From Mycobacterium sp. UM_WGJ (GTDB lineage: Bacteria; Actinomycetota; Actinomycetes; Mycobacteriales; Mycobacteriaceae): a stretch of 64,000 nucleotides of DNA. Where the stretch lies: positions 1 through 64,000 of the forward strand of contig NZ_AUWR01000014.1 in the NCBI RefSeq assembly GCF_000455125.1, written 5' to 3'. A program made the position numbers and the translations under genes. The notes below the pieces were generated by a model, which made no database searches, was not told the DNA's origin, and saw only the letters and a program-made list of their open reading frames with translations. Positions 39,080 through 55,845 of the stretch are shown piece by piece; position 1 is the stretch's first letter; each line of letters opens with the position of its first letter.

Positions 39080-39084
39080 AGAAA
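39080..39084 (+). repeat. Target site duplication AGAAA (left)
   Basis: AGAAA directly precedes the left terminal TG of the Tn7-like element and is repeated exactly at 55077-55081. Five bases is the duplication length made by Tn7. Confidence 0.85.
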
Positions 39085-39170
39085 TGCCTTGTCTCAATCT
39101 ATCTGGCGGATTTCTCAATTGATCTGGCGGTTTTCGGCGTGCCGTCCGCGTCTCATAGAAGTTGGCGGTT
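39085..39170 (+). repeat. Left transposon end with three TnsB-binding-type repeats
   Basis: Three direct 21-bp sites follow the terminal TG: 39091-39111, 39112-39132 and 39150-39170. All match GTCTCAATnTAnnTGGCGG closely; the third is weakest in its centre. The first two abut. Such asymmetric arrays of transposase sites at each end define Tn7-type elements. The third site ends 49 bp before tnsA and overlaps its probable promoter. Confidence 0.88.
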
Positions 39171-39219
39171 AGTGTCGGACCACTGCCGTACTGTCAGCGG
39201 CGAGGATTGAAGGAGTCGA

Positions 39220-39975
39220 ATGGCAGCTCCACGTCTACGCTCGCTACCGCGGAACGTCACCGATGTGACGCGAGTGTTGGCGTGCGTAGACGGGACTGTT
39301 CATAACATCCAGCTGTCGCCGGACGCCGGATCCGTGGCCGCCGAGCGTGCCACCCCCATCCGTGAGTTCTTCTCGTGGCCCGGTAAACGGAACTACGAAG
39401 GCCTCTACTGGTCGAGCACGAACCGCCGTCACGTGGACTTCGAGTCGCTCCTGGAGCGCGAGTATCTGCTGGCGGCCGACAATGCACCCGACATTGTCGC
39501 CATCGCGGCGCAGCCACTGGCGCTGCTCTGGCCTCGTGCCACCCAGGGAAACCGCGACCACGTACCGGATTTCTTCGTTCGACTTGCCAACGGCGATGGC
39601 CGATTGATCGACGTACGTACCCCGAAGGCAGCCGAGAAGCATGCCGAGCAGTCCGCCTTGACACGCAAAGTGTGCGATGAAATCGGTTGGGAGTACGAGG
39701 TCTTCACAGGCCTGCCGTCCGAGCTAGCCCACAATCTGCGCTGGCTTGCTGGATATCGGCACGACCGCAACGCTCCCTCGGCAGAGGTCGCACAGTCGAT
39801 CGAGCACTGCTTCGCAGCACCGGTGTCACTCCAGGTCGGTCTCGGCGAAGCCAGCTCGCGTACGGGCCGAAGCATCGAACTCACCACCGCCAATGTGCTG
39901 CACCTGATATGGCGCAGAAAACTGTCGGCCGACTTAACCCGGCCGCTTTCGATGTCCAGTGAGGTGTGGGCATGA
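39220..39975 (+). CDS. tnsA: TnsA-like heteromeric transposase endonuclease subunit
   Basis: The 251-aa protein is the PD-(D/E)xK nuclease that cuts the 5' ends of the element so it moves by cut and paste with TnsB. The nuclease core shows E75 in HVDFESLLEREYL, D117 in DHVPDFF and a third motif RLIDVRTP (D131-V-R133) where E. coli TnsA has Q-x-K. Arg in place of the catalytic Lys is also familiar in actinobacterial TnsA-like proteins, as I recall. The WLAGYRH segment follows. AAGGAG at 39210-39215 precedes the ATG. It overlaps tnsB by 4 bp. Confidence 0.85.
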   Translation: MAAPRLRSLPRNVTDVTRVLACVDGTVHNIQLSPDAGSVAAERATPIREFFSWPGKRNYEGLYWSSTNRRHVDFESLLEREYLLAADNAPDIVAIAAQPLALLWPRATQGNRDHVPDFFVRLANGDGRLIDVRTPKAAEKHAEQSALTRKVCDEIGWEYEVFTGLPSELAHNLRWLAGYRHDRNAPSAEVAQSIEHCFAAPVSLQVGLGEASSRTGRSIELTTANVLHLIWRRKLSADLTRPLSMSSEVWA

Positions 39976-42023
39976 AGACGGTCCGCCTCTTCGACATGCT
40001 GAGCTACGACGGCCAGGCATGGCAGGTCGTGGCACAGGATGGACCACAACTGGCGCTCAAAGAACTCATTTCGGGGCGGATTCGGAAGATCGGCGTGGCG
40101 GAACTCCTCGGCGACGAGAGCTTCCTTCCCGACGTCCCTGACCGCCTACCGCAGCTTGATTCGGCCGCAGTGTTAGAGACGTTGGATCCTGTTGCGCGCG
40201 AACGCGTATTGTTCCTCCGTCGCCACGTCGTTGAAGTGCTTACCGGCCAACTTCCCGCGGAGCTCGACGGACGCGATGAAGACTCATCGATAGCGATACG
40301 CCGTGAGTACGACTCGAAACTTCCGCTGAAGGATCGCATTGCCGCGAAGGTCTCCGAGTTGGCGGCAGCGAAAACCCCTGTCAGCTATCGGAGTCTGGAA
40401 CGGTATATCAAGGCATACCGCCAAGATGGTATGGCCGGGTTGGTCGACGGACGGATGCAGCGGCAGTCCTCACCCACCGGACGGATCGACCCGGCAGTCG
40501 TTTCCCTTCTCGAAGACGCCGTGAAGGCGCAAACGAACATCTCTACGGGAACCCGATCCCGCGTCATCAAACAGGTCAGCCTGGAAGCCTCCCAGCTGGG
40601 CTTGCCGCTGCCCTCGCGGCCCACGCTGTATCGCGCGGTAGAGAGCCTTGAGAAGGCTCGCCATCCGTTCGGTGATGCGACAACCCGGCGCACGCAAGCG
40701 AATCGGCCAGACCGAACATGGGGGGGCCAGGCTCCGTCACGGCCAGGTGAACTGACCGAGGTCGACAGCACACCGATGGATCTGATGGTCATTTATCCAG
40801 ACGGGTCGACTGGGCGCGTGGATCTGACGCTGATGCTCGACGTGGCTACCCGGACCTTGTGCTCGGCGATCCTCAGGCCGGTGGCTACGAAAAGTGTTGA
40901 CGCGGCCGTGCTTCTCGCGCGAGCGCTGACTCCCCTGCCGATGCAACCCGGCTGGAGCCGATCGGTGGGTTTCTCGCGCTCAATCCTTCCCGTCGGCATG
41001 ATCGAAGGTGACGAAGACATTCGGGCCGGCGTGGCCGCGAAGCCCGTCATCGTGCCCGAATCGATCACCGTGGATCGAGGCAAGGTATACGTCGGTTCGA
41101 CGTTTCTCAATGCTTGCGAACGCCTGCAGATTAGCGTCACCAAGGCGGCGCCCCGCACTCCCACCGACAAGCCTCACGTGGAGCGAGTCTTCGCCGCCAT
41201 AAACAGTGGATTTACTCAGTACCTCGCGGGATATGTCGGGCCGAACGTCGTGAAGCGCGGCGCAGCTCCGCATGCAGAAGCGATGTGGACACTCGCTGAA
41301 GTGCAGAATCTTCTCGACCTTTGGATCGTCGCGGTCTGGCAGAACAAGCCACACCCTGGCCTTCGGCATCCGGCGATGCCGAAGAAGGATCTCACGCCGA
41401 ACGAGGCCTACGCGGCGTTGGCGTCAGTCGCGCCCACGGTAAACGTCGCCCTCGATCGCGACGACTATATCGGCCTGCTTCCGGTGACCTACCGGTCGAT
41501 CCAGGGCTACGGCATCAACTTCGAAAGCCTGCACTACGACCATCCGGCCCTGCATCCCTACCGTCACGTCAAGAGCGGTTTACCGCTGCCGGCGAACGGT
41601 GGATGGGAAGTTCGGTACGACCCGTACCGTCTGCAGTCGATCTTCGTCCGTGACCATTTTCGGGGCGAATGGATCGAGGCTGAGTGGAGCCTCGCGAAAA
41701 AAGCGCTGGCGCCGTTCTCCCTCGACGTACTGCGCGCGGCGCGCAAGGCAGTGCAGAAGCGCGACGAGAACCCCAGCGGTGTTGATGTTCTTGCCGAGAT
41801 CAGCCGTATCCAAACCGGTGGTGCCCGGACGGTCAAAGAACAACGAGCTGCCAAGCGGGACAGCGTGAACAAACCCGTGGTGCCGCCCTTACCCCCTACC
41901 ACAAAGCGGGCTGAACCGGACGCTGACGAAGAGCGCCTGGCGAGCGTGTCCGCGATCAACGCGGCCTGTGCTACCCCGCGGCGGGCAGCAGCTCGCCGTA
42001 TCGACGATGAGGACGACGATTAG
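39972..42023 (+). CDS. tnsB: TnsB-like DDE transposase (Mu/rve integrase core)
   Basis: The 683-aa transposase cleaves and joins the 3' ends. N-terminal HTH domains (about residues 95-210, including PVSYRSLERYIKAYRQDG) bind the terminal repeats. The RNase H-like core carries D265 (ELTEVDSTPMD), D368 (ITVDRGKVY) and E404 (DKPHVERVF), with the classic 35 residues between the second Asp and the Glu. A Mu-type C-terminal barrel follows and a basic tail that probably contacts TnsC. The ATG at 39972 overlaps the tnsA stop as ATGA. Confidence 0.94.
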   Translation: MKTVRLFDMLSYDGQAWQVVAQDGPQLALKELISGRIRKIGVAELLGDESFLPDVPDRLPQLDSAAVLETLDPVARERVLFLRRHVVEVLTGQLPAELDGRDEDSSIAIRREYDSKLPLKDRIAAKVSELAAAKTPVSYRSLERYIKAYRQDGMAGLVDGRMQRQSSPTGRIDPAVVSLLEDAVKAQTNISTGTRSRVIKQVSLEASQLGLPLPSRPTLYRAVESLEKARHPFGDATTRRTQANRPDRTWGGQAPSRPGELTEVDSTPMDLMVIYPDGSTGRVDLTLMLDVATRTLCSAILRPVATKSVDAAVLLARALTPLPMQPGWSRSVGFSRSILPVGMIEGDEDIRAGVAAKPVIVPESITVDRGKVYVGSTFLNACERLQISVTKAAPRTPTDKPHVERVFAAINSGFTQYLAGYVGPNVVKRGAAPHAEAMWTLAEVQNLLDLWIVAVWQNKPHPGLRHPAMPKKDLTPNEAYAALASVAPTVNVALDRDDYIGLLPVTYRSIQGYGINFESLHYDHPALHPYRHVKSGLPLPANGGWEVRYDPYRLQSIFVRDHFRGEWIEAEWSLAKKALAPFSLDVLRAARKAVQKRDENPSGVDVLAEISRIQTGGARTVKEQRAAKRDSVNKPVVPPLPPTTKRAEPDADEERLASVSAINAACATPRRAAARRIDDEDDD

Positions 42024-42025
42024 CC

Positions 42026-43063
42026 ATGGCCGTACCCGATTCGCTGGCCGCATGGCGGGAGTTCGTCAACCGCCGAAATGTTGAGCCGGAACACCTCTGC
42101 ATGAAGCAGATCAGTGCCCTCTCCCCTGCCGAAAAAGACGTCTATGACCAGCAACGCTTTGCCTGGTTAGGGGCAGATGTCGTGCTGGAGACGCCCGATA
42201 CAGAGGCCTTGACACACCAGACGCGTGTGTTGATGGCGCGGAACACCGCGGAGTCGGCCACTGCGCGGCGTGGGCTTGCGATCTCCGGGTCCGCCGGCCG
42301 TGGGAAGTCGACGGCTGCCCTGCTGATCGGTCGTCGGCATGAACGGGTCACGCGTGCCAGGTTGAACCGTTACGACGACGGCTTCGCCCCGGTGGTCTAC
42401 ACCGTCGTCCCGCCCGGCACCACCCCGAAGATGATGATGCTGGCATTCGCGAACTTCCTCGGCCTGCTGGTCCCGAATAAGTCGACCGCGCAAGACCTGA
42501 CCGAGCAGATCGTCGGGGTGATGCGGAGCCTGTCGGTGTCGTTGGTCCTGGTCGATGAGGTGCACAACCTCAAGACCAATCACCAGGCTGGCAGTGAAGC
42601 CGCGTCAGCGTTGAAGGTGTTCTCCGAGAGACTCGATGCAACGTTCGTTTACGCCGGCATCGACCTCCTTCAGGCCGATCTGTTCGCCGGGCACATGGGT
42701 CGCCAACTGAAGGGTCGGATGGCCGTCCACCAGATGCGGAAATACGAGTTCGGGACGAAGGCGCAGCGGGATAAGTGGGCGGAACTCGTCCTGGGTGTCG
42801 AGGCACTGTTGCCGCTTGGACGGCATGTCGCCGGATCCCTCGAAACCGAGGCGACCTACCTCTACGACCGCACCGGAGGTTCCATCGGTTCACTCCGTGC
42901 ACTCCTCAACGACGCGGCGATCGCTGCGATCTTGAATGGTGAAGAGCTGATCAGCAGGAAGCTCCTCGACCTGACCGCCACCGATTTCGCAGCGGAAGAG
43001 GCCGCGGCGCGGACAGTAGAGGGCAACGCTCCGGCTCCTATGCCGTTAAAGAGGGCTGAATGA
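42026..43063 (+). CDS. tnsC: TnsC/TniB-like AAA+ ATPase
   Basis: The 345-aa AAA+ regulator links target selection by TniQ to the TnsAB transposase. Walker A is GSAGRGKST (K94), Walker B LVLVDEVHNL (D177-E178), with sensor-type residues in TFVYAGIDLL. The C-terminal part contains the arginine-rich RKYEFGTKAQRDKWAEL and a small lid domain. It starts 2 bp after tnsB and overlaps tniQ by 4 bp, so the four tns genes form one coupled operon. Confidence 0.92.
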   Translation: MAVPDSLAAWREFVNRRNVEPEHLCMKQISALSPAEKDVYDQQRFAWLGADVVLETPDTEALTHQTRVLMARNTAESATARRGLAISGSAGRGKSTAALLIGRRHERVTRARLNRYDDGFAPVVYTVVPPGTTPKMMMLAFANFLGLLVPNKSTAQDLTEQIVGVMRSLSVSLVLVDEVHNLKTNHQAGSEAASALKVFSERLDATFVYAGIDLLQADLFAGHMGRQLKGRMAVHQMRKYEFGTKAQRDKWAELVLGVEALLPLGRHVAGSLETEATYLYDRTGGSIGSLRALLNDAAIAAILNGEELISRKLLDLTATDFAAEEAAARTVEGNAPAPMPLKRAE

Positions 43064-43905
43064 CGATCACTCCCCTACCAGTTCGCACCCGCGCATTTCA
43101 CGGCGAGAGCCTGGACTCGTACACGCGACGCCACTCAGCCCGAAACTTCTGTAGTCCTTCCGATATTGACCGCGCCTTGCGTGAGCGCGGCGTCATACGG
43201 TCGGGCAATCGGCGCGACCCCGATCGTCTACGGGCATGGCGAGAGCTCGGCGGACTGCGGACGAATTCCTTCACCTCACCCGACTATGTCCTCGACCAGG
43301 AGGTGACCGAGCGGGCGCTGTGCCTCCGCTGCACCCGGGGCGAACCCGCCCGAGGGAAACTGACCGGCATCGGGCTGGTGTGTGTTCGGCACAGGCGGTG
43401 GCTGGGCTCTCCGCAGATAGATCTGCACGGCTACTTCCCCGCTCTCGCTGCGGAGCGGCACTTCCGGCGACACCTTGCCGCTCGGGACGTCCTGCACGAT
43501 TCCCTTCCCATGCTGATTGGTCGAGAATGCGCCAGTGCAGCGATCATCGGCGCTAGCGAGATCGACCGCCGTAGAGATGAATTCGGAATCGAGGCGATTG
43601 ATGCACTGACGTATCCCGAGCAAGTCAAGATCGCTCGACTGCTCTGCTCACCCGGGTTTCTTTGCGCTGCAACCGATCCTGATGCTGACTCGGCTCTGCG
43701 CAGCTCGCTGGTCGCCAGAGAAGTGGAGAAGATCATCCCCGCTCGCAACGATGCAGACCCGTGGCGAGCAACCAACCGGGTGTGGACTGCGATCACGCAT
43801 CTGACTGCACGTCGCCGAGATGCCCGTATCTATGGAGTGCCGATGCGCGACACCTACTACAAGATCCTGCGGTTTATTCAGGAACCCGTGGTGGTCCGAT
43901 CGTGA
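43060..43905 (+). CDS. tniQ: TniQ family target-selection protein (TnsD-like)
   Basis: The 281-aa TniQ protein has the characteristic opening (PVRTRAFHGESLDSYTRRHSARNF) and a zinc-binding motif C88-x2-C91-x16-C108-x2-H111 (LCLRCTRGEP...GLVCVRHRRW). In Tn7-like elements TniQ/TnsD recognises the insertion site, or joins a CRISPR effector. At 281 aa it is shorter than E. coli TnsD and lacks a long C-terminal DNA-binding domain. That leaves open whether it picks a fixed site or permits near-random insertion. Confidence 0.85.
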   Translation: MTITPLPVRTRAFHGESLDSYTRRHSARNFCSPSDIDRALRERGVIRSGNRRDPDRLRAWRELGGLRTNSFTSPDYVLDQEVTERALCLRCTRGEPARGKLTGIGLVCVRHRRWLGSPQIDLHGYFPALAAERHFRRHLAARDVLHDSLPMLIGRECASAAIIGASEIDRRRDEFGIEAIDALTYPEQVKIARLLCSPGFLCAATDPDADSALRSSLVAREVEKIIPARNDADPWRATNRVWTAITHLTARRRDARIYGVPMRDTYYKILRFIQEPVVVRS

Positions 43906-44018
43906 GTGCGTTGTCTGAGGCACCGAACTTGCGGAGCATGACGCGAATCCAGGCTACTGTGCCCAATCCCCTGTTTCGGGGCTTGCTGACGATCGCTGGG
44001 ACCAAGGGGCATCGATGA
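43902..44018 (+). CDS. Candidate 38-aa ORF bridging tniQ and the SNF2 helicase gene
   Basis: A GTG at 43902 overlaps the tniQ stop (GTGA) and the frame ends in TGA at 44016-44018, overlapping the helicase start (ATGA at 44015-44018). The 38-aa product starts VSALSEAPNLRSMTRIQ and is basic. The double overlap is just what a coupled mini-gene would show. It could also simply carry ribosomes from tniQ to the helicase gene. No homologue is recognised. Confidence 0.4.
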   Translation: MSALSEAPNLRSMTRIQATVPNPLFRGLLTIAGTKGHR

Positions 44019-46921
44019 CGTTCCAGCTCACCGACTATCAAGCCAAGTATTACGCGCACGAGTTGCAGCGCAGCTACGCGAACGACCACGTCGGCAAGCT
44101 GGCCGGCCTGCTATTCGATGCGCAGGTGGAGCCCAAGCCGCACCAGATCGATGCCGCGCTGTTCGCGTTGCAGACACCGTTCCTGCCAGGCGTCATCTTG
44201 GCTGATGAGGTGGGCCTCGGGAAGACGATCGAGGCGGGCATCGTCATCTCGCAGTATTGGGCGGAGCGTCGTCGCAGCATCCTTGTGGTCGCTCCGTCGA
44301 GCTTGCGGCAGCAGTGGCAGCAGGAGCTGTACGAGAAGTTCTTGATCCCGTCTGCCATCCTCGATCCGAAGTCGAAGGACTCCCTTCTTGCTCAGGCCGG
44401 CTCACGCTCGTCGCAGGTGTTGATCTGCTCCTACGAGTTCGCACTCCGACATGAGGTCTCCCTGCTCAAGGCGTGGGATCTGGTGGTCGCGGACGAGGCG
44501 CACCGGCTGCGGAACTACTGGACGGGCAAGACCAAGGCCGCTGAAGCGGTGGCGCATGTCCTGCAGGGTGCCCACAAAACCGTGCTGCTCACGGCGACAC
44601 CGCTGCAGAACAAGCTTGAGGAACTGTACGGGTTGGTCTCGATCTTCGACCCCGCCTACTTCTACTCGCTCGATGCCTTTCGGGAGCGGTATATCAAGAA
44701 CCGCGACCTCGGTGGCGATGACGACCTGGTCGAACGTGTCGCGACGGTATCGAAGCGCACGCTGCGGCGCGACGCGGACAAGTACATCCACTTCACCAAG
44801 CGGCTGCCGCTGACAGTCGAGTTCACCCCGTCCGCCGACGAAGTACGTCTGTATGACCTGGTGAACGACTACTTGCAGCGCGACGAGCTGTTCGCCTTCG
44901 CGGGGTCACAGCGTCACCTCTCCGCCCTGATCATCCGTAAGCGCCTCGGATCGTCGACCTATGCCGTCGCCAGCACCCTGGAAAACATCGCCAAGCGTCT
45001 GGCAGACGAGGTCGCCGCCGGGCAGCGACGCGACGGCCGTGGCGGTCTGGTCACCGCTGACTTCGCAGTCGATGACGAGATCACCAGCGAGGAACTGGAG
45101 GATGCCGAGGAGATCGAGACAGCTGGGCCTGGCCGTGGCGCACCGTCAACATCTGCGCCGCTGGACGAGACTCTCCTGCAGGCCATGAGGGCCGAGGTTG
45201 CCGAGCTGCACGAGTACGCGGCCTTGGCGCGGTCGATCACGGTGAACCAGAAGGCCGTCAAGCTCATCGAGGCGCTCGACCTCGGATTCGAGCGGCTTCG
45301 CGAGCTGGGCGCTCCTGAGAAGGCCATCATCTTCACGGATTCGACCAAAACGCAGGACTACATCGCGCGTTCCCTTCGAGGGGCTGGTCGCGGTGACGGG
45401 CTGGTGCTATTCAATGGCTCGAACAACTTGGCCGAGCAGACGGCGATCTACCAGGGCTGGCTCAAGGCTAACCAGGACGGTGACCTGATCACCGGCATAG
45501 CTGCCGTGGATCGACGCAAGGCGCTTGTGGACTACTTCCGCAACGAGGGGACGATCATGATCGCCACCGAGGCAGCGGCCGAAGGTATTAACCTGCAATT
45601 CTGTTCGATGCTCGTCAACTACGACCTGCCATGGAACCCGCAGCGTGTCGAGCAGCGCATTGGTCGCGTACACCGCTTCGGGCAGAAGCACAACGTCGTC
45701 GTCGTGAATTTCTCAAACAAGGGCAACATCGCCGAGCAGCGCATCTTAGAGTTGCTGACGAACAAGTTCCAGCTGTTCTCCAGCGTGTTTGGCGCCAGCG
45801 ACGAAGTGCTCGGCGCGATCGAGGATGGCCTGGACTTCGAGAAGACGATCAGCGACATTCTCACCCGTTGCAAGTCTGCCGGCGAGCTGGATGCCGCGTT
45901 CAAAGATCTTGAGACCCAGTACGCCAGCGAGATCTCACGCGAGATGGCCAGCGCCAAGGCCAAGGTCTTCGACAATCTCGACCCACACGTACAGGATCGC
46001 CTGAAGGCGTATGACGCACAGTCCGGCGAGGTGCTGAACAAGTTCGAGCGCCTTCTGCTCGCGGTGACACGTCACGAGCTGAATCGGTTCGCCACCTTCG
46101 ACGGAGATGGGCGCACCTTCGTACTGAACGAGTCCCCGGTGGCAGGAGCGCCGACCGGACGCTACTTCTTCAAGTCGCAGCCGCTCGACAACGCCCACCA
46201 GTACCGCTATGCGAGCCCGCTTGCCCAGCACGTGGTCAATAGCTCAAAGACTCACGAGACCCCGGCACGGGAGCTGACGTTCTCACTTGGGCAGTCAGAC
46301 CGTGTCAGCAGCACGATCCGAGCGCTTGAGGGCACCAGCGGCGAGCTGACCGTCAGCCTTACGACCTTTCGTATGAAGGCACGCGACGAGGATGTCTCCG
46401 AGTCCTACGTGCTCGCCGGCGCACTGAGCGACGATGGGCGCTGGCTCGACGAGGAGTACGTCGCGGACCTCCTCGGCCTGACTTGCATCGCGGTCGGTGA
46501 GCAGCCCGTGGTGATCGACGAGAGCCGCTTCGCGCCGCATCTGAGCGCACGCCGGGCCGAACTGGAGAAGGAAGTCCAGGGCCGCAACGCCCGCTACTAC
46601 GACCAGCAGGAAGAGCTGCTTTACCGCAACCAGCAAGACCGCAAGGCCGAGCACGAGGGCGCAATCCGTGACTACCGGGCTAAGGAGAAGGAAGCCCGCC
46701 GGCTGGCACGTCAGGCCGACGATCCGATGGAGCAGCTGCGGCTCAAGAAGGAAGCTCGCAAGTGGGAGCAGCGCGCCGAGGAAGCCGACGAGGACTTCCG
46801 CGACGCGCGTAAGAAGCTCCGCACCGAGGCAGACAAGTACCTCGAACTCATCGAGCAGTCGCTCCAGGGAACCCAGGACACGGAGCACCTGTTCACGATC
46901 CGTTGGCGGATAGCCAAATAG
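44015..46921 (+). CDS. SNF2/RapA-like DEAD/DEAH helicase, first gene of the defence cargo
   Basis: The 968-aa SWI2/SNF2 translocase has Walker A DEVGLGKT (K70), motif Ia LVVAPSSLRQQW, DEAH (D160-H163, VVADEAHRLRNYW), motif III LLTATPLQN, and the C-terminal helicase motifs ATEAAAEGINLQ and QRIGRVHRFGQ. The last 130 residues are a charged coiled coil (EAEKKKE-type repeats around 840-960). It precedes mod and res, so it probably works with the type III-like system, perhaps as a DNA translocase or remodeller of the restriction complex. DISARM DrmD is a similar helicase, but DrmA/B/C are missing here. Confidence 0.85.
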   Translation: MTFQLTDYQAKYYAHELQRSYANDHVGKLAGLLFDAQVEPKPHQIDAALFALQTPFLPGVILADEVGLGKTIEAGIVISQYWAERRRSILVVAPSSLRQQWQQELYEKFLIPSAILDPKSKDSLLAQAGSRSSQVLICSYEFALRHEVSLLKAWDLVVADEAHRLRNYWTGKTKAAEAVAHVLQGAHKTVLLTATPLQNKLEELYGLVSIFDPAYFYSLDAFRERYIKNRDLGGDDDLVERVATVSKRTLRRDADKYIHFTKRLPLTVEFTPSADEVRLYDLVNDYLQRDELFAFAGSQRHLSALIIRKRLGSSTYAVASTLENIAKRLADEVAAGQRRDGRGGLVTADFAVDDEITSEELEDAEEIETAGPGRGAPSTSAPLDETLLQAMRAEVAELHEYAALARSITVNQKAVKLIEALDLGFERLRELGAPEKAIIFTDSTKTQDYIARSLRGAGRGDGLVLFNGSNNLAEQTAIYQGWLKANQDGDLITGIAAVDRRKALVDYFRNEGTIMIATEAAAEGINLQFCSMLVNYDLPWNPQRVEQRIGRVHRFGQKHNVVVVNFSNKGNIAEQRILELLTNKFQLFSSVFGASDEVLGAIEDGLDFEKTISDILTRCKSAGELDAAFKDLETQYASEISREMASAKAKVFDNLDPHVQDRLKAYDAQSGEVLNKFERLLLAVTRHELNRFATFDGDGRTFVLNESPVAGAPTGRYFFKSQPLDNAHQYRYASPLAQHVVNSSKTHETPARELTFSLGQSDRVSSTIRALEGTSGELTVSLTTFRMKARDEDVSESYVLAGALSDDGRWLDEEYVADLLGLTCIAVGEQPVVIDESRFAPHLSARRAELEKEVQGRNARYYDQQEELLYRNQQDRKAEHEGAIRDYRAKEKEARRLARQADDPMEQLRLKKEARKWEQRAEEADEDFRDARKKLRTEADKYLELIEQSLQGTQDTEHLFTIRWRIAK

Positions 46922-46979
46922 ACCAGAGGCATTCGCGCACCCGAGCAAATTGCTGCAAACATGAAAGAGAATTGCCTGA

Positions 46980-48884
46980 ATGACTGACGAGATCTACGAA
47001 ACACTGTCCGCCACTCCAAACTTTCAGACCGAGCTGGCAGCGCAGCTTGCCGATCTGATTCCCGAGGCCATCGCCGACGGCAAGGTGGATGTCGAGAAAC
47101 TCAAGGAACTGCTCAACGGTGACGCGGCCGACAGCAGCGAGCGCTTCGGCCTGTTCTGGCCGGGCAAGAAGCGTGCGCTCCGTGCCGCGCAAGAGCCGAC
47201 GACGGCGACGCTGAAGCCCGACCTCGACAACTCAAAAGACTGGGATACCACCAAGAACGTCTTCATTGAAGGCGACAACCTTGAGGTGCTCAAGATCCTG
47301 CAGAAGCACTACCACGCCAAGATCAAGCTGATCTACATCGATCCTCCGTACAACACCGGCAAGGACTTCGTCTACCCGGACAACTACAAGGAGGGGCTCG
47401 ATACCTACCTCGAGTGGACGCGCCAGGTCAACGAGGAGGGCAAGAAGGTCACCTCCAACGCTGAGACGGATGGTCGCTACCACTCCAATTGGCTCAACAT
47501 GATGTATCCGCGCCTCAAGCTCGCTCGGAACCTGCTCACGGATGACGGAACTATCTTCGTCAGCATCAGCGACCATGAGGTCGACAACCTCCGGAAGCTC
47601 CTGAACGAGGTGTTCGGCGAGTCCAACTACATCGGTCAGATTGCGGTGTCGAAAGGCACAACCACTGGACAAGACGCCAACGACATAGGTAGCAGCATCG
47701 ACTTCCTGCTCGTGTACGCCAGAAGCAAGGTGAACTACATCCCGAATGGCCTTCCGCTCGACGAAGCCGACATGGCGCGCTTCAACATGGAAGATAGTCG
47801 CGGCCGGTACAGCGTCTTGCAGTTCCGCAAGACTGGCACGAACGACCGCCGCGAGGATCGTCCGAACCTGTACTACCCACTTACTGCTCCGGACGGCTCA
47901 GAAATCCTTCCGATAGGCCCGGGCGGATACGAGAGCTGTTGGCGCACTGCACGCGAGCAGTTCGAGAAGTGGGACGCGGAGGACATGGTCGTCTGGAAAC
48001 AGGACCCCGAGGGGCTGTACAAGCCCTACATCAAGTACTACCTCGAAGGGCGCACCAAGCAAGTTTCCAACTATTGGGACGACATAGAGGGCAACAAGAA
48101 GGCCAGTATTACAGTCAAAGAGCTGCTTGGTAAAAACGTCTTCACAAATCCGAAGCCGGTTGGGCTCATCAAGAAGATCCTGCACATCGCAACTGATCGC
48201 GACTCGCTGGTTCTCGATTTCTTTTCCGGTTCAGCCACCACTGCACACGCTGTGATGCAACTCAATGCCGAGGACGGCGGCACTCGCCAACACATCCAAG
48301 TCCAGCTTCCTGAGCCCACACCCGATGACTCAGCAGCTCGTAAAGCGGGCTACGAGACGATCGCGGCCGTCGGGCGTGCGCGTATAAACCTCGCAGGCAA
48401 CAACATCGCATCCAGCGCCGCAGGCCAGCTTGAGAACGGGTCCGCGCCGCTGGATATCGGCTACCGCTCCTACGGGCTCGCCGACACCAACTTCTCCAAG
48501 TGGCGACTGTCGAGCGATGTCGAGGAGGGCGCCCTCCAACAGCACCTGCTGAGCCTTCGCGACAGTGCGACTGACGAGGCGACGGCCGATGAGTTGGTAA
48601 CCGAGATCCTGCTCAAGCAGGGCTACTCTTTGACCGAGGCTGTCTCGCCGGCTGAGGTGGGAGGACTCGACGTCCGACTCGTTCGTGACCGCGACGGAGA
48701 CATCGCCGTGCTCGCCTACTTAGACGAACACACCAAGCCAACTCTCAATCAGCTCCGCATCCTAGTTGATGAGGCTCCTACGCGGATCATCATCCTCGAA
48801 GACGCCTTCCAGGGCGACGACGAACTCAAGACCAACCTTGCCCAGCTCGCAAAGAGCAAGGGCATTGAACTCTGGACGGCGTAA
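46980..48884 (+). CDS. Type III-like DNA methyltransferase (Mod, beta class)
   Basis: The 634-aa site-specific adenine N6- or cytosine N4-methyltransferase has D121-P-P-Y124 in LIYIDPPYNTGKDF. The AdoMet site comes later, in LVLDFFSGSATTAHAVMQ (about residue 413), the DPPY-before-FxG order of the beta class. The segment VFIEGDNLEVLKILQKHY is typical of Mod subunits, and the intervening region is the target-recognition domain. It would protect host DNA at a short unmethylated-strand site in type III fashion. It overlaps res by 1 bp (TAATG). Confidence 0.92.
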   Translation: MTDEIYETLSATPNFQTELAAQLADLIPEAIADGKVDVEKLKELLNGDAADSSERFGLFWPGKKRALRAAQEPTTATLKPDLDNSKDWDTTKNVFIEGDNLEVLKILQKHYHAKIKLIYIDPPYNTGKDFVYPDNYKEGLDTYLEWTRQVNEEGKKVTSNAETDGRYHSNWLNMMYPRLKLARNLLTDDGTIFVSISDHEVDNLRKLLNEVFGESNYIGQIAVSKGTTTGQDANDIGSSIDFLLVYARSKVNYIPNGLPLDEADMARFNMEDSRGRYSVLQFRKTGTNDRREDRPNLYYPLTAPDGSEILPIGPGGYESCWRTAREQFEKWDAEDMVVWKQDPEGLYKPYIKYYLEGRTKQVSNYWDDIEGNKKASITVKELLGKNVFTNPKPVGLIKKILHIATDRDSLVLDFFSGSATTAHAVMQLNAEDGGTRQHIQVQLPEPTPDDSAARKAGYETIAAVGRARINLAGNNIASSAAGQLENGSAPLDIGYRSYGLADTNFSKWRLSSDVEEGALQQHLLSLRDSATDEATADELVTEILLKQGYSLTEAVSPAEVGGLDVRLVRDRDGDIAVLAYLDEHTKPTLNQLRILVDEAPTRIIILEDAFQGDDELKTNLAQLAKSKGIELWTA

Positions 48885-51865
48885 TGAGCGGATCGGGATT
48901 TCAGTTCGACGCCAGCCAGCCATATCAGATGGCTGCGATCGCATCCGTGATCGACCTGTTCGACGGGCAACCGAAAGATGCGGAGAAGCTCGTCACGGCG
49001 CTGCGTAGTGCAACAGTGCTGCCAGACTCGGAGGAGGGGGCGCTTGATATCGACCTCACGCAGGAGGTCGGTGCCGTTGGCAACAGCCTCGTGCTCGACC
49101 GCGACCTGATCCTCGCGAATCTTCAGCGGGTGCAGGATCGGAGTGGCCTTGAGGTCGCACCGAAGCTCTACGACGATGCGCTCGACTTCGACATCGAGAT
49201 GGAGACGGGCACCGGCAAGACCTATGTCTACCTGCGCACTATCTTCGATCTGGCGGTCAGGTACAACTTCACCAAGTTCGTCATTCTCGTGCCCAGTGTT
49301 GCAATCCGGGAGGGCGTCAGCACGAGCATCCGGCTCATGCGAGAGCACTTCGAGAACCTCTACAAGCCGCAGGGCATCACGTTCGATGCCTCGATCTACA
49401 GCGGCAAGAGCGCCGAGGAAGTGCAGTCGTTCGCAACGTCGACGAACGTGCAGATCTTGATCATGACGATCGACTCGATCCGTGGCAACGCGAATACCCG
49501 CATCATCCATCAGACCCGTGACAAGTTGAACGGCCTGCGGCCCATTGACTACCTGAAGGCGACTCATCCGGTCGTCATCATGGACGAGCCGCAGAACATG
49601 GAGTCGCAGCTCTCACAGTCGGCAGTTGGCGAACTCGACCCCCTCTTCACGCTGCGCTACAGCGCGACCCACAAGAAGCAACGCAATGTCGTCTACCGGC
49701 TTGACCCAGTCGATGCCCACGATCTCGGGCTGGTGAAGCAGATCGTCGTTGCCGAAGTGCAGCAGCAGGGCGCGGACGCAGCGCCGTACATCAAGCTCGT
49801 CCAGGTGCGGCGTGAACCGTCCTGGTCGGCCCGGCTGGAACTCTCCTGCCGCAAGGCCGACGGTTCGCTCGAACGGCGCGTGGTGAGCGTGAAGCAGCAT
49901 CAGGAACTCTCAGACCCGCGCATCACCGACAACCCGATCTACGAGGGTTGGCGCATCAACGAAATGAGCATCGAACCCGCCTACGTCGACCTCACCACAC
50001 ACGGCTTCCTGGACGAAGGAGAGAGTATTGGCGCATCCGCCGGCGCAATCTACAAGGAGATGATCCGCGAGACCATCCGCGAACATCTGCGCAAGGAGTC
50101 GATGCTGCGCGCGAAGAAGATCAAGGTGCTCAGCCTCTTCTTCGTCGACAAGGTCGCCAGTTACCTAGGCGATGGCACCAACAACGATGACGCGAACGGC
50201 GACTTCGTGACCTGGTTCGACGAGGTCTTCATTGAGGAGCGTGCCAAGTCCGCGCGCTACCAAGCGTTGCTCCCGCAGACGCCGATCGAGCTTCGCCGGG
50301 CCTACTTCTCCCAGATCAAGCGCGGCAAGACGACCACCTTCCAGGACTCCTCCGGCACGACCAAAGCCGATGACGACGCCTACGAACTGATCATGCAGGA
50401 CAAGGAGCGACTGCTCGACGAGAACGAGCCGGTACGGTTCATCTTCAGCCACTCCGCCCTGCGCGAGGGCTGGGACAACCCCAACGTCTTCCAGATATGC
50501 ACTCTGCGCGAGATGGGCGCCGAGACCGAACGCCGCCAGACTCTCGGGCGCGGCCTGCGTCTGCCCGTTGCGAAGACCGAGGACGGCTATGCCCGGGTGG
50601 CCGACCGTGGAGTCGCGACACTGACGGTGGTGGCGAACGAGTCGTACACGAAGTTCGCGGATGCCCTGCAGAAGGAGTACAAGGAGGCCGGCGTCGAGAT
50701 CGGCCGGGTGCGCAAAGCCGAGTTCTCGAAGATCCCGCTACAGGACGAGAACGGCGCCCCCACCGACGACCAGTTCGGGTACCAGCGTTCCCTTCTCGTA
50801 TGGGAACACCTCAAGGACAAGGGCTTCATCGACAAGGAAGGCACCGTCACCTCGAAGTTCCAGCCGAACCAGCTCGGTTTCAGCCTCGACCTGCCGACCG
50901 ACTTCGCCTGGGCGGAGGGCGCCATCATCGAGCTGGTCGAGCGCGCGCACATCGGCAAGTACGTCAAGCCGGTCAGCAAGCGCAAGCCGCGCAGACCCAA
51001 CAAGCAGCTCTACTCAACGCCAGAATTCGAAGAGTTCTGGGAGACGATCAGCCGTAAAACGACCTACCGCGTCACGGTTGTTCGTGACGACCTGATTAAG
51101 AATGCGGTCAAGGCTGTTCGCGAGGCTCCGAAAATCGACCCACTACGCATCCAGATCACTCGCGCCGGAGTGCGGCTACTTCGAGGTGGAGCCAAAGGCG
51201 AAGAACTCGGCACCCGCTCGGCAGATCTTAAGGGCAGTTACGACCTACCGGACATCATCACGGAGCTGCAGGAGACGACGTCCCTGACCCGCAAGACCAT
51301 CGTCGACATCCTGATCGGCAGCGGCCGGTTGGGCGAGTTCATCGGCAACCCGAACGACTTCATCGCGATGGTCAAGCGTGCGCTCCAGGCCGAGTTGGCA
51401 AAGATCGTGGTCGAGGGGATCCAGTACGAGAAGATCGCGGGGTCGGTCTACGAGCTTCGTGAGCTACAGAAGGATGGCGAGGAGGAGAAGGAACACTTCC
51501 TCGACCAGATGTACAAGGTGCAGCACACCCAAAAGACGGACTTCGATTACGTCGTCTTCGATTCCGAGGTTGAGCGTCAGTTCGCCGAGCTACTCGACTC
51601 ACGCGAGGACATCAAGCTGTTCATGAAACTCCCTTCAAAGTTTAAGATCGACACTCCGGTCGGCCCGTACAACCCCGATTGGGCGATCATCAAGCACGAA
51701 GAAGGCGAAGACCGGATCTACATGATCCGTGAAACCAAGAGCACCCTCGATGATTCAAAGCTTCGTCCCTCCGAGTCGGCCAAGATCAAGGCCGCCAAGC
51801 AACACTTCGAGGCCATCGGCGTCGAGGACTATGCGCGTGCAGTACCGGGAGCGTGGAAACTGTGA
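48884..51865 (+). CDS. Type III-like restriction endonuclease subunit (Res)
   Basis: The 993-aa SF2 ATPase-nuclease shows Walker A METGTGKTYVY (K112), the DExx box VIMDEPQNME (D234), motif VI TLGRGLRLPV, and a C-terminal PD-ExK nuclease (D932 in YNPDWAII; E950-T-K952 in MIRETKST). That architecture is standard for Res. With Mod it should cleave foreign DNA lacking the methyl mark. Its start overlaps the mod stop. Its stop lies within the start region of the OLD-type gene, keeping the cargo as one coupled operon. Confidence 0.93.
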   Translation: MSGSGFQFDASQPYQMAAIASVIDLFDGQPKDAEKLVTALRSATVLPDSEEGALDIDLTQEVGAVGNSLVLDRDLILANLQRVQDRSGLEVAPKLYDDALDFDIEMETGTGKTYVYLRTIFDLAVRYNFTKFVILVPSVAIREGVSTSIRLMREHFENLYKPQGITFDASIYSGKSAEEVQSFATSTNVQILIMTIDSIRGNANTRIIHQTRDKLNGLRPIDYLKATHPVVIMDEPQNMESQLSQSAVGELDPLFTLRYSATHKKQRNVVYRLDPVDAHDLGLVKQIVVAEVQQQGADAAPYIKLVQVRREPSWSARLELSCRKADGSLERRVVSVKQHQELSDPRITDNPIYEGWRINEMSIEPAYVDLTTHGFLDEGESIGASAGAIYKEMIRETIREHLRKESMLRAKKIKVLSLFFVDKVASYLGDGTNNDDANGDFVTWFDEVFIEERAKSARYQALLPQTPIELRRAYFSQIKRGKTTTFQDSSGTTKADDDAYELIMQDKERLLDENEPVRFIFSHSALREGWDNPNVFQICTLREMGAETERRQTLGRGLRLPVAKTEDGYARVADRGVATLTVVANESYTKFADALQKEYKEAGVEIGRVRKAEFSKIPLQDENGAPTDDQFGYQRSLLVWEHLKDKGFIDKEGTVTSKFQPNQLGFSLDLPTDFAWAEGAIIELVERAHIGKYVKPVSKRKPRRPNKQLYSTPEFEEFWETISRKTTYRVTVVRDDLIKNAVKAVREAPKIDPLRIQITRAGVRLLRGGAKGEELGTRSADLKGSYDLPDIITELQETTSLTRKTIVDILIGSGRLGEFIGNPNDFIAMVKRALQAELAKIVVEGIQYEKIAGSVYELRELQKDGEEEKEHFLDQMYKVQHTQKTDFDYVVFDSEVERQFAELLDSREDIKLFMKLPSKFKIDTPVGPYNPDWAIIKHEEGEDRIYMIRETKSTLDDSKLRPSESAKIKAAKQHFEAIGVEDYARAVPGAWKL

Positions 51866-53838
51866 GGCTCATTTCCGCTCACGTTCGAGGCTATGGGCGT
51901 ATCGCTGACTCCAAGATCAATCTGGACGCGAAGGTCATCGCGATCGTCGGGCCGAACGAAGCTGGAAAAACCACCCTGCTAAAGGCTCTCGCACACGTCG
52001 ATGCTGGGACAGCCATCCCGACTCTCCAACGTTCTCGTGCCGTCGAAGTAGCGGACAACACCTACGTAACAACGTTCGATTACGTCATCGAGGAGAAGGA
52101 CCACGCTGAGCTTGTTGACCTCGGCTTACAGGAACTGCCCACCCGCGCTCGTATCGCGCGATCTGCTTCCGGGGACAAGCTCACGATCGAACTGACCCCC
52201 AAGCCACTCAAGTCGGTCCAGCCGCTCCATGCCCCGCTCGAAAAGCTGCAGGCGGCATCGAAGAACGACAATTTGAGCACCTGGATCGATCCGAATACGT
52301 CATATGGAGATGCCGACTCGGACGATCCGCGTGACTACGGCAAGGAGCTTCTATCCGTCATTGAGGCGCTCGATGCCGCGATCGGAGAACCTGGTAGCCC
52401 CCTCTCCAGCGAAGCGGTAGAGACCGTCCGCTCCTTGCTTAGGGTGACGCTGGACGCAGATGTCGATGCGGAACAGCTTTGCGCGGCGTACAGCGCCGTA
52501 ATTGCTTGGTCGGAGCTGGATGCCCCCGGCTCGGCCGCCCGCACTCGAATATGGAACCGCACACCAGATTTCATCTTGTTCGACGAAGCTGATCGATCGA
52601 TTCAGTCTGCATACACGTTTGATGACGCCCTTGTCAGCAGCCCGCCAGTTGCGCTGGCGAATCTGGCGGGTACAGCATCGCTCGACCTCACAGAGCTCCT
52701 TCATCTCGTTCGCACTGGAGACATCGCGCGCCGACGAACGGCAATAGTTCAGGCAAACAGACGGATGGATGCGATTTTCGGTGACGCATGGAAACAATCG
52801 AGACTCGCAGTTCATTTCGAGCTTGACGGCGAGCAGTTGCGGATCGAGCTCATGGAAGATGGGGATAACGTCACCGTCTTCGATGAGCGCAGTGCGGGCC
52901 TGCGCATGTTCGTGGCACTGATCGCATTCCTGAAGGTGCATGGTTCCGACCGCTCACCCATCCTGCTCATTGACGAGGCAGAGAACCATCTTCATATTGA
53001 TGCCCAGGCAGACCTGGTGAATATGTTCGTCACACAGCAACATGCGGTCAAAGTCATTTACACCACGCACAGTCCCGCCTGCCTCCCACCGGATCTCGGC
53101 ACGGGTATTCGCGTGGTCGTGCCCCGTCAAGACAACTTGCAGGTAAGCGACGTGAAGAACAGCTTCTGGCAAGGTGCGGCCGGCTATTCACCTCTAATGC
53201 TCGCGATGGGTGCAGCGGCTGCAGCGTTCACCCCAGCCCGGTACGTGGTTCTGGCAGAAGGAGCGACTGAAATGATCCTCTTGCCGACATTGATGCGCGC
53301 GGCAACCGACCAAACGGATCTGCCCTACCAAGTGGCGCCCGGTCTGTCCGAAGTCCCGAATGACTTCCTACCGAAGCTTGACCTCGAAGCAGCCCGGGTG
53401 GCCTACCTAGTCGACGGTGACGATGGCGGAGCCAGGCTAAAGGCAAATCTCACGGATGCCGGTGTCCCCGACCACCTGATAGCGGACCTGGGCACCGCTG
53501 GCATCGAGAACCTCCTAACAGAGGACTCGTATAGGGCAGCCATCTCAGCGTTGCTGCCTGAATGCAATCCGGAAGTCTCCGCGAGCGAATTGCCGGAAGT
53601 TCCTCCGGTAGATGCTGGGGAAGGTAACTCGGTTGCGCGGTGGATGTCCAACTGGCTCAAGGGCAAGGGGTTAAAGCCACCGTCCAAAGTGGCGGTCGCC
53701 AACTGGCTCGTCGAAAACAACCGGGCTACGGCAAACGCCGAGGGAACAGAAGTGCTCAAGTTCGTCCATGCGAATCTACTCGCGGCGCTTGGAATTATCG
53801 ATAGGGCAACGTCGGAACCGGAATCGGAACACCAATAG
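51862..53838 (+). CDS. OLD-type AAA ATPase-TOPRIM nuclease
   Basis: The 658-aa protein has an ABC-type ATPase with Walker A GPNEAGKTT (K36) and Walker B LLIDEAENHLH (D371-E372) with a following His-switch-like TTHSP. A TOPRIM nuclease follows: E466 in VVLAEGATEMILLP and D518-G-D520-D521 in YLVDGDDGG. It belongs to the overcoming-lysogenization-defect group, which includes Gabija GajA. No UvrD-like GajB is near, so it is either a class 1-type OLD acting alone or a part of this cargo. GTG 51862 overlaps the res stop; GTG 51853 is also possible. Confidence 0.85.
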   Translation: MRLISAHVRGYGRIADSKINLDAKVIAIVGPNEAGKTTLLKALAHVDAGTAIPTLQRSRAVEVADNTYVTTFDYVIEEKDHAELVDLGLQELPTRARIARSASGDKLTIELTPKPLKSVQPLHAPLEKLQAASKNDNLSTWIDPNTSYGDADSDDPRDYGKELLSVIEALDAAIGEPGSPLSSEAVETVRSLLRVTLDADVDAEQLCAAYSAVIAWSELDAPGSAARTRIWNRTPDFILFDEADRSIQSAYTFDDALVSSPPVALANLAGTASLDLTELLHLVRTGDIARRRTAIVQANRRMDAIFGDAWKQSRLAVHFELDGEQLRIELMEDGDNVTVFDERSAGLRMFVALIAFLKVHGSDRSPILLIDEAENHLHIDAQADLVNMFVTQQHAVKVIYTTHSPACLPPDLGTGIRVVVPRQDNLQVSDVKNSFWQGAAGYSPLMLAMGAAAAAFTPARYVVLAEGATEMILLPTLMRAATDQTDLPYQVAPGLSEVPNDFLPKLDLEAARVAYLVDGDDGGARLKANLTDAGVPDHLIADLGTAGIENLLTEDSYRAAISALLPECNPEVSASELPEVPPVDAGEGNSVARWMSNWLKGKGLKPPSKVAVANWLVENNRATANAEGTEVLKFVHANLLAALGIIDRATSEPESEHQ

Positions 53839-53840
53839 CC

Positions 53841-53957
53841 ATGACCAGCGAGTCAACCAGAGCCTTCGAGCTGGCAGACCAGGGCGGACACTTCTACCGT
53901 GCCGACTTCCAAGTCCGCACACTCCGCTTGGCGGACTACATTTTGGGACGGAAATGA
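53841..53957 (+). CDS. Candidate 38-aa ORF between the OLD and TIR genes
   Basis: An ATG at 53841, 2 bp after the OLD stop, opens 38 codons (MTSESTRAFELADQGGHFYR then ADFQVRTLRLADYILGRK). It stops in TGA at 53955-53957, which overlaps the TIR start (ATGA). It could be a genuine small protein, the truncated N-terminus of a lost gene, or a ribosome-delivery leader. The amino-acid make-up looks protein-like, with no low-complexity bias. No homologue is recognised. Confidence 0.45.
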   Translation: MTSESTRAFELADQGGHFYRADFQVRTLRLADYILGRK

Positions 53958-54904
53958 AAGATAGAGAAATCGAAGCGAGTGATCCAGTCGCAACGTGTTT
54001 CATCAGCTACAACCATGCGGACAAGCCGCTTGCCGAAGCCTTGGCTGAAGGCCTTAGAAAAGCTGGCTACCGGGTCTGGATTGACAGCGGCGAGCTCCGG
54101 GTGGGAGACAGCCTCGTGGCTGTGATCAGCAGTGCTATAGAACAAGTCGACTTCCTTGTGGCCCTGGTGAGCTCAGCGTCGGTCGAAAGCAACTGGTGCC
54201 AAAAAGAAATCTCGCTGGCTATGACGGGTGAGATTGCACAGAAGGGCATCACGGTCCTGCCTTGCCAAGTCGGTGGTGTGGCGATGCCGGCAACTCTCGC
54301 GGACAAGCTCTACCTGCAAATCAACCCGGATATGATCGCTGAGGCCGTCGCAACGCTGGATCGTGACATGAAGCGTCATTTGGTGCCCTCGGCTCCATTG
54401 CCTTTACGAAAGCGTGGGCAGGCGGGACCACGGCGGTCCGCGACTCAGGCCGCTGTTCCCCCGAAACGAACTGCGTCGACGTTCAACCCACACATTCCGG
54501 TCACAATTGCGGGTGTCGATGCTCAACGCGTTGGAAAGCCACGTAACGACGGAACTCGCGGAAGCGCCCTCTACACAGTGCCTTTCACTCTGTCGACCGC
54601 ACCCGACGGCGCATGGTGCGAGCTATTCGTTCAACACTGGAACCAGCCACCGCGCTTCACGACCATGCACCGACCGGGAAACGCCTCGGTCTCCGGTGAC
54701 CGGATCATCCTCACCGGAACGACGATGGACGAGGTAGAGAAATATCACGTCGAGACACTTCGGTTGGTTATCGAGACAACCAACCGGGACCGCCTGGCGC
54801 TCGCACAACGTCAGGAGCGCGAACGCCAGGCTGAGATCGCGCGTTCAGACGAGCATCAAAAGTCGGTCGACGAGATCGCCCAGCGACTCAAATTCGACCA
54901 ATAG
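53954..54904 (+). CDS. TIR-domain protein with novel C-terminal region
   Basis: In this 316-aa protein an N-terminal TIR domain (about residues 13-145) starts ATCFISYNHADKPLAEALAEG and has the candidate NADase glutamate E85 in SNWCQKEIS. Residues 150-185 form a Pro/Arg-rich linker. Residues 187-283 make a beta-rich domain with paired Trp (APDGAWCELFVQHWNQPPRF) that I do not recognise, ending in a charged helix. Bacterial TIR proteins in defence degrade NAD+ or make signalling nucleotides on infection. As the last cargo gene it may be a second, abortive layer behind restriction. Confidence 0.85.
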   Translation: MKDREIEASDPVATCFISYNHADKPLAEALAEGLRKAGYRVWIDSGELRVGDSLVAVISSAIEQVDFLVALVSSASVESNWCQKEISLAMTGEIAQKGITVLPCQVGGVAMPATLADKLYLQINPDMIAEAVATLDRDMKRHLVPSAPLPLRKRGQAGPRRSATQAAVPPKRTASTFNPHIPVTIAGVDAQRVGKPRNDGTRGSALYTVPFTLSTAPDGAWCELFVQHWNQPPRFTTMHRPGNASVSGDRIILTGTTMDEVEKYHVETLRLVIETTNRDRLALAQRQERERQAEIARSDEHQKSVDEIAQRLKFDQ

Positions 54905-54981
54905 ATCTGATCAGTGATCGCCTGAGCCAGGTGGGCATTGTCCCTCGCTGAACCTCGTCCTGTGCACCGCCGTGCGTTTGG

Positions 54982-55076
54982 AACCGCCAATTAGATTGAG
55001 ACATAACAGCCTTTAGCGGTGTCAAAATTACTGACGGTTACCAGCACCTGGCCGCCAACTACATTGAGACCGGACA
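54982..55076 (-). repeat. Right transposon end with two inverted TnsB-binding-type repeats
   Basis: On the minus strand the sites at 55050-55070 and 54982-55002 both read GTCTCAATnTAnTTGGCGG, opposite in orientation to the left-end sites. Six bases (CGGACA on the plus strand) lie between the outer site and the terminus at 55076, the same distance as at the left end. Confidence 0.88.
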
Positions 55077-55081
55077 AGAAA
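55077..55081 (+). repeat. Target site duplication AGAAA (right)
   Basis: An exact copy of the left flank at 39080-39084, directly after the terminal CA of the element. Confidence 0.85.
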
Positions 55082-55171
55082 AATGCTGCCTGCCGCTGCT
55101 AAACCGCTGTGCTACAGCATGTTTCATTGACACCGTTTCGCAGCCGGCGTGCGTGGTTTGCGGCCAAGCGG

Positions 55172-55842: not shown

Positions 55843-55845
55843 CAG

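Follow-up and report, generated by a model that had tools for sequence, protein, structure and literature searches.

A Tn7-like transposon of Mycobacterium sp. UM_WGJ that probably uses the chromosomal dif site as its attachment site

Transposon Tn7 of Escherichia coli and its Tn7-like relatives combine the proteins TnsA, TnsB, TnsC and TniQ with arrays of approximately 20-base-pair (bp) sites at both ends and a 5-bp target duplication. In Tn7 itself TnsA and TnsB cut and join the element, TnsC forms the bridge, and the end on the tns side faces the attachment site. The element described here, from a 64,000-nucleotide stretch of Mycobacterium sp. UM_WGJ (contig NZ_AUWR01000014.1, positions 1 to 64,000; hereafter the window), has the same proteins, arrays, duplication and orientation, and lies beside dif, the site where bacteria untangle doubled chromosomes (chromosome-dimer resolution). 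It differs from Tn7, which attaches at the glmS gene and has a long TnsD, in its location at dif, in its TniQ of 281 amino acids (aa) and in a flipped middle site within the far-end array. The roles of TnsA, TnsB and TnsC in Tn7 are also given in PMC11406308.

Other actinobacterial Tn7-like elements are clade 2 (Benler 2021, PMC8649781), stated there as not experimentally characterised, and Tn7706 of Rhodococcus, with the gene set tnsA, tnsB, tniQ and tniB (PMC12915292); the window element perhaps belongs to the same broad clade, and the passages on clade 2 and Tn7706 in these two papers make no mention of dif targeting. A closer likeness in target choice is offered by the Tn5053/Tn402 'res site hunters', which likewise have one TniQ and home on the recombination site of a recombinase: Tn5053-family TniQ targets the resolvase res sites of Tn3-family transposons common on plasmids (PMC11406308). 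Whilst Tn5053 lacks TnsA and carries a site-specific recombinase (PMC11406308), the window element has TnsA and no resolvase domain in the nine genes scanned, and its target is not a plasmid-common resolvase res site but a tyrosine-recombinase site on the chromosome, the Tn5053-type feature of a recombinase-bound target being seen here as adjacency only. Because TnsA is present and no resolvase was found, we would not place the element in the Tn5053 family, though its operation may be alike. A third comparison is with Tn6022, in which TniQ pairs with TnsF, an inactivated Xer-like recombinase (PMC10293859); a TniQ together with an Xer-like tyrosine-recombinase fold as selector would be common to both, but TnsF is encoded by the transposon and targets comM, whereas no such gene was seen in the window element and its candidate selector would be the host XerC/XerD. 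The same paper takes a small TniQ to be generally characteristic of elements that have a further target selector; the word 'dif' has no occurrence in its main text. In our searches of an open-access library we found no description of dif targeting by a Tn7-like element.

The preliminary description of this DNA, made from the sequence alone, delimited a Tn7-like transposon with both ends, a perfect duplication and an equal 6-bp spacing from each terminus to the first site; all of these proved exact, from the TG start to the CA finish of an element of 15,992 bp. The boundaries and transposase sites are as follows.

39085..55076, + strand: transposon (TG...CA termini, flanking duplication)
39080..39084, no strand: target-site duplication, left copy AGAAA (flank reading)
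55077..55081, no strand: target-site duplication, right copy AGAAA (flank reading)
39091..39109, + strand: TnsB-type site 1, tnsA end (GTCTCAATnTAnnTGGCGG match)
39112..39130, + strand: TnsB-type site 2, tnsA end (GTCTCAATnTAnnTGGCGG match, 2 mismatches)
39150..39168, + strand: TnsB-type site 3, tnsA end, weak (GTCTCAATnTAnnTGGCGG match, 3 mismatches)
54984..55002, - strand: TnsB-type site, far end, inner (GTCTCAATnTAnnTGGCGG match)
55019..55037, + strand: TnsB-type site, far end, middle, flipped orientation (4 mismatches; conserved offset)
55052..55070, - strand: TnsB-type site, far end, terminal (GTCTCAATnTAnnTGGCGG match)

With up to 3 mismatches allowed, the 19-bp pattern GTCTCAATnTAnnTGGCGG has five matches in the window (39091+, 39112+, 39150+, 54984- and 55052-), every one at the element ends, whereas 100 shuffles averaged 0.40 and never exceeded 3. 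The five sites agree with the earlier count, three on the left and two inverted on the right; that count falls short at the right end, where the flipped site at 55019-55037 is a third. The flipped site recurs at the same offset and in the same orientation in five of the six elements scored, window included, the exception being that of genome G118 (compared genomes, contigs and loci are given by G, C and L numbers). With a matrix built from 20 other end sites the flipped sites score between 11.6 and 25.3, where shuffled sequence reaches 5.9 at its 99% point and 13.5 at most; the window copy, at 11.6, is among the weaker.

The four core transposition genes named in the preliminary description were likewise confirmed, tnsA, tnsB and tnsC by profiles and tniQ by hhalign to annotated TniQ proteins.

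39220..39975, + strand: tnsA, 251 aa (NF033179 TnsA_like_Actin, 238.5 bits, cut-off 110; PF08722)
39966..42023, + strand: tnsB transposase, 685 aa (PF09299; PADLOC TnsB; matches Tn6677 TnsB 9y7b)
42026..43063, + strand: tnsC/TniB ATPase, 345 aa (PF05621; TnsC structures 7m99, 7rzy)
43060..43905, + strand: tniQ, short, 281 aa, putative target reader (hhalign to annotated TniQ proteins)

By every feature tested the element is a Tn7-like transposon: it has the site arrays of about 20 bp at both ends with the 5-bp duplication, a TnsB of the Tn7 kind, a TnsC/TniB ATPase with TniQ, and a predicted TnsA endonuclease, above the NF033179 cut-off, as a cut-and-paste element would have. Assignment of TniQ comes from the clade-A alignment (the clade is defined below), which matched six annotated TniQ proteins from related plasmids by hhalign at 98.4% and E=1e-14; one relative (L048) matches PF06527 at E=2e-4, under the curated cut-off, whilst the window TniQ itself has no Pfam match at E≤10 and a PDB profile search with the alignment gave no hits. 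In the nine element genes scanned we found no TnsE domain, no evident additional target-selector gene and no convincing cas gene of the kind that would mark a CRISPR-associated transposon, the two weak Cas matches being typeIV_Cas8 (15 bits) on TniQ and cas3_core (22.4 bits, cut-off 102) on the helicase; an Rfam scan of 38000-56500 gave no matches. The mycobacterial host named previously agrees with the relatives, since seven named loci of close relatives are all Mycobacterium or Mycolicibacterium, and similar end sequences do accompany other copies of these tns genes, as had been anticipated.

What the preliminary description overlooked is the presumed target, 50 bp from the element. Side-by-side comparison of the relatives' left flanks identified a shared motif outside the element, and this motif is dif.

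39007..39034, + strand: chromosomal dif, 28 bp (XerC arm, central hexamer, XerD arm), presumed target (GCCGATAANNNACATTATGTCAA match)

At up to 3 mismatches GCCGATAANNNACATTATGTCAA has a single match in the 4.47-Mb genome, the window dif, which ends 50 bp outside the tnsA end of the transposon. Its copy, AACGCCGATAACGTACATTATGTCAATT, equals the Frankia alni dif, itself a prediction (PMC3025954), at 24 of 28 bases and differs at 4. At least one match at up to 2 mismatches occurs in 280 of 297 sampled genomes of the genus, and the cumulative G-C maximum of the window, at 37.0 kb, lies 2 kb from dif, which fits the expectation for a terminus.

The spacing to dif is narrow across the closest relatives. 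Twelve clade-A elements were measured, window included: all full-length TnsB matches of at least 66% identity together with an interrupted copy in G113 (TnsB identities 66-100%). In all 12 the tnsA end faces inward on the XerD side of a dif-like site, 39-50 bp away from the XerD arm; the gaps from the 28-bp site to the first element base are 50 (window), 48, 45, 41, 47, 46, 39, 48, 47, 50, 46 and 48 bp. Both ends were located in the window, G002, G061, G062, G063 and G118, and elsewhere the tnsA end was read from sequence. The 5-bp duplications differ among insertions (AGAAA, GCAGT, ACCGG, CCGGT; that of G062 is imperfect at 4 of 5 bases, TTGCC versus TTGCA), and strong conservation between the flanks of different insertions is confined to dif, for over the 12 sites dif averages 1.59 bits of information per base and each 40-bp flank 0.35. 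By simple arithmetic, in about 5 Mb of DNA a single chance insertion has a probability near 2e-5 of landing no more than 100 bp to one side of a unique site. G308 carries two copies, of which the second, 3.7 Mb away in contig coordinates, lies 50 bp from an Xer-like site, AACGCCGATAAGCGCCGTTATGTCAGGT, with the same arms and a different central hexamer. An XerD-side motif, TTCATCnGATGAATCA, present in five clade-A flanks (one with a change), was rejected as the target because it is absent from, for example, G002, G118 and G063.

These comparisons rest on a dif-proximity table of the best 105 of about 134 TnsB places and a dif scan of 80 genomes, 76 with a match. G061 and G200, G063 and G144, G065 and G186, and G066 and G113 were taken as the same genomes, their coordinates agreeing, and each was counted once; the fragmentary TnsB places in G113, G117, G285 and G015 stand outside the distance measurements except for the G113 left end. 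In G113 tnsB is interrupted, its 5' part near dif on C4 and its 3' part 3.5 kb further and again on C3 (L064-L066, L087). In G061 one whole contig of 15,896 bp (C94, M. neglectum, L067) is a single transposon from TG to CA, and the contig with dif stops inside the transposon left end; this genome holds either more than one copy or a mixed occupied and empty population.

A TnsB tree of 82 rows (quick method, SH-aLRT support; the tool warned of long branches) places the family in context; seven rows have an unknown label owing to contig breaks, and the label 'none' signifies no dif near on the same contig. Clade A is one group with support of 100, comprising 10 dif-side rows, the second G308 copy and a copy on the Arthrobacter plasmid pJ349. 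Its sister, clade C (support 97), lies on the XerC side of dif in 8 of 11 rows; in the rows from G020, G303 and G207 a distance of 8-42 kb separates tnsB from dif, again on that side, and the row from G070 has no assigned position. Eight loci were found to carry the clade-C end string no more than 400 bp from dif, and in these the end is 44-50 bp away on the XerC side; one of them, G170, has the end only, with no clade-C TnsB found. Clade A occupying the XerD side and clade C the XerC side, two sister lineages therefore use the same site from opposite flanks. Of the 18 rows of the outer clade, 17 lack a nearby dif on the contig and the remaining one has an undetermined label.

Taken together, these data lead us to propose, with a probability of roughly 0.88, that the window element is a cut-and-paste Tn7-like transposon that attaches at dif, or more generally at a site bound by XerC/XerD, rather than at a gene. 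TnsA and TnsB would excise and join the element, TnsC would form the bridge, and the short TniQ would select the target. Insertion would place the tnsA end, facing dif, 39-50 bp past the XerD arm, with a 5-bp duplication and with dif left intact. Direct support extends to the ends, duplication and machinery, to the narrow spacing, single side and single orientation across insertions with different duplications, to the loss of strong conservation outside dif, and to the second G308 copy and the pJ349 copy, which lie at other Xer-like sites, the latter on a plasmid. TniQ is the likely target reader because, in a tblastn search of the loci compared (E≤1e-5), its homologues occur at clade-A loci only, whilst TnsC homologues are present also at loci of other families.

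Several observations weigh against this proposal. Among the 12 clade-A elements the far end was located in just 6, and the involvement of XerC/XerD draws on analogy. The pJ349 copy (TnsB 63.7%, TniQ 41%), whose end is 36 bp from the plasmid Xer-like site, sits on the other arm, the XerC side; that on the Arthrobacter plasmid pHiyo8-1 (TnsB 63.5%, fragmentary annotation) lacks such a neighbour, its single strong Xer-like site lying about 4 kb from the end. The empty site predicted in the preliminary description was not recovered, as no spanning match for the joined window flanks occurs among the loci compared, and junctions are spanned weakly for G118 in G122 (77% over 147 bp) and for G062 in G310 (77% over 135 bp). 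An AlphaFold model of TniQ was unusable (mean pLDDT 46.6). Finally, a distant element outside the tree (G117:C1:3565504-3567276, L085; TnsB 31% identical) also stands on the XerD side, its tnsB 935 bp away from dif, so that lineages other than clades A and C may share the dif-side trait.

As to how dif is recognised, we favour, without great confidence, TniQ reading the nucleoprotein complex of host XerC/XerD on dif, a suggestion made by analogy. Since TniQ is small and no additional selector gene is evident, host XerC/XerD on dif would be the economical choice of selector; a fuller version, in which TniQ docks on the recombinase and the sister lineages are specialised on the XerD and XerC halves, we hold to be only slightly better than evenly poised. 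The strongest competitor, a possibility that we take seriously but consider the lesser one, is that TniQ (or TnsC/TnsB) reads naked dif DNA directly and XerC/XerD have no role. TnsD of Tn7 binds its att DNA directly, and a reader of sequence alone would also yield a fixed spacing and side; but the sister clades sit on opposite arms, the central hexamer varies between targets (though this is compatible with both views), and the 281-aa TniQ is without the long C-terminal extension that has been suggested to confer target-DNA recognition (PMC10293859).

The remaining explanations dispense with dif as the target. Tn7 reportedly transposes into regions where replication terminates, and dif lies 2 kb from the turn in GC skew, such that a preference for the replication terminus, of the kind attributed to TnsE of Tn7, or tolerance of insertions there by selection, might place elements in this region; we consider this very improbable given the 39-50 bp spacing, single side and single orientation in 12 of 12, the copies at the second Xer-like site and the plasmid Xer-like site, and the lack of a TnsE domain in the genes scanned. 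Proximity to dif, where other elements may exist right at the site in G079 and G310, could suggest an IMEX-like element integrated by XerC/XerD recombination with the Tn7 genes as passengers, but both ends are defined by 5-bp duplications and TnsB-site arrays, and dif is intact, single and outside the element, with no second dif at the far end to make a flanking pair; we give this scarcely any credence. Equally remote is attachment to a right-flank gene such as the PIN-domain (vapC-like) gene at 55172-55600, which also stands right of the G002 element, since other families are found there in G062 (Ntox5), G063 (diaminopentanoate-dehydrogenase-like/DAP_DH_C) and G118 (integrase-like), 3 of the 5 examined thus having no PIN gene, and the narrow spacing is to dif, on the left; nor is the insertion beside glmS, as at attTn7.

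The history of the site bears on a further earlier claim, that the intact element arrived recently. Intact ends are compatible with this, yet left-end relics resembling clade A lie 45 and 47 bp from dif in G079 and G165, two genomes with no tnsB match at E≤1e-30, and DNA of the window right flank is found about 3 kb and 1 kb from dif in these genomes, respectively. Because G079 and G165 share this right-flank DNA and have the relics at dif, recent arrival cannot be claimed; judged from these sequences, this spot appears to have had an earlier occupant. On a contig with DNA matching the window right flank (G015:C257, L012), a TnsB fragment of 46 aa (67% identity) that contains a stop is a possible third relic at this spot. 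An alignment of G079 to the left 52 bp of the window was rejected as an empty site, as 156 of 500 shuffles were as good. Two genomes, G310 (85% over 832 bp) and G016 (76% over 858 bp), have alignments that span the junction of the joined G002 flanks, with gaps near the junction in each and, in G310, about 180 further bases between the spanning stretch and dif. In L101 and L112 (G079 and G310) a GGCGGAAnCGAATATGGCnGGTTACC-like sequence abuts an apparent second copy of the dif XerD-side flank, which suggests another element, maybe Xer-integrated, inserted right at dif.

Other transposons share this neighbourhood. In G002 a single dif is flanked by two elements, one of clade A and, opposite it, one that is more distant. 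In G170 (L079) a clade-B end lies inside the clade-C left end beside dif, and in G067 (L084) a clade-B tnsB lies between the clade-C end and the clade-C tnsB, both being nested transposons; dif looks like a stacking site for transposons. Clade B (TnsB 41-45%), at first read as dif-targeting on the XerC side, may instead follow a palindrome near dif. This palindrome, CGTCACTGTGACG, occurs in the window at 38709-38723 and 37859-37873; with up to 1 mismatch allowed, 46 of 60 locus rows, some loci being repeated, have it on the XerC side at 188-404 bp from dif (301 bp in the window). In clade B, 16 of 27 rows, some of them on plasmids, have a copy 722-1140 bp upstream of tnsB, and in four loci read by eye it is approximately 40-70 bp outside the clade-B end. 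The palindrome may represent a second landing pad and may be bound by some protein.

Amongst more distant relatives, a search covering 397 genomes from the order and 394 from the class (E≤1e-90) gave a single further one near 50% TnsB identity, G786, from another family, with a dif-like site on the same side 907 bp upstream of tnsB (a distance from tnsB, not from the element end). The other 35 loci in the upstream Xer scan (TnsB about 36-44%, about 1.5 kb upstream in most) had an Xer-like site in one case, G132. The second TnsB of the window's own genome (G000:C43, 33% identical) is not a second copy, because it belongs to a different lineage and its contig has no dif. In L125, L126 and L131, on plasmids of M. 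kubicae, Pseudonocardia and Nocardia, tnsA is divergent and approximately 215-350 bp from a mobF relaxase gene, as if the transfer-origin region were targeted.

Downstream of tniQ the window element carries five further genes.

44015..46921, + strand: SNF2-type helicase, DrmD-like but under NCBIfam DrmD cut-offs (profile scans)
46980..48884, + strand: type III restriction-modification methyltransferase (PADLOC MTase_III, 1.3e-178)
48884..51865, + strand: type III restriction enzyme (PADLOC REase_III, 2e-265)
51853..53838, + strand: AAA/OLD-like ATPase (PF13175, PF13304)
53768..54904, + strand: TIR-domain protein (PF13676, 6.2e-25)

This cargo is a set of phage-defence genes. Relatives in G062 and G063 have type I restriction-modification genes instead, that of G062 also an AAA-domain protein; the cargo is thus exchangeable, and of restriction type in the three copies inspected.

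A Tn7-like family with dif/Xer DNA as its attachment site is probably, by analogy, a chromosomal counterpart of the res-site hunting of Tn5053. With dif predicted in 578 of 592 single-chromosome bacteria surveyed (PMC3025954), a Tn7-like machine that reads it would therefore have a nearly universal, gene-sparing and usually single landing site, and a site kept by circular chromosomes would offer a safe and widespread home. Reading of dif would connect DNA transposition with chromosome segregation, and may help to account for restriction and defence cargo at mycobacterial dif. If the complex of host XerC/XerD on dif is indeed the selector, a recombinase borrowed from the host would steer transposition, adding another mode of target reading to the DNA-binding TnsD, the Cas-guided TniQ and an element's own TnsF. 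The family presents a testable natural case of a host recombinase as target selector, and a potential tool for single-copy insertion at dif in actinobacteria.

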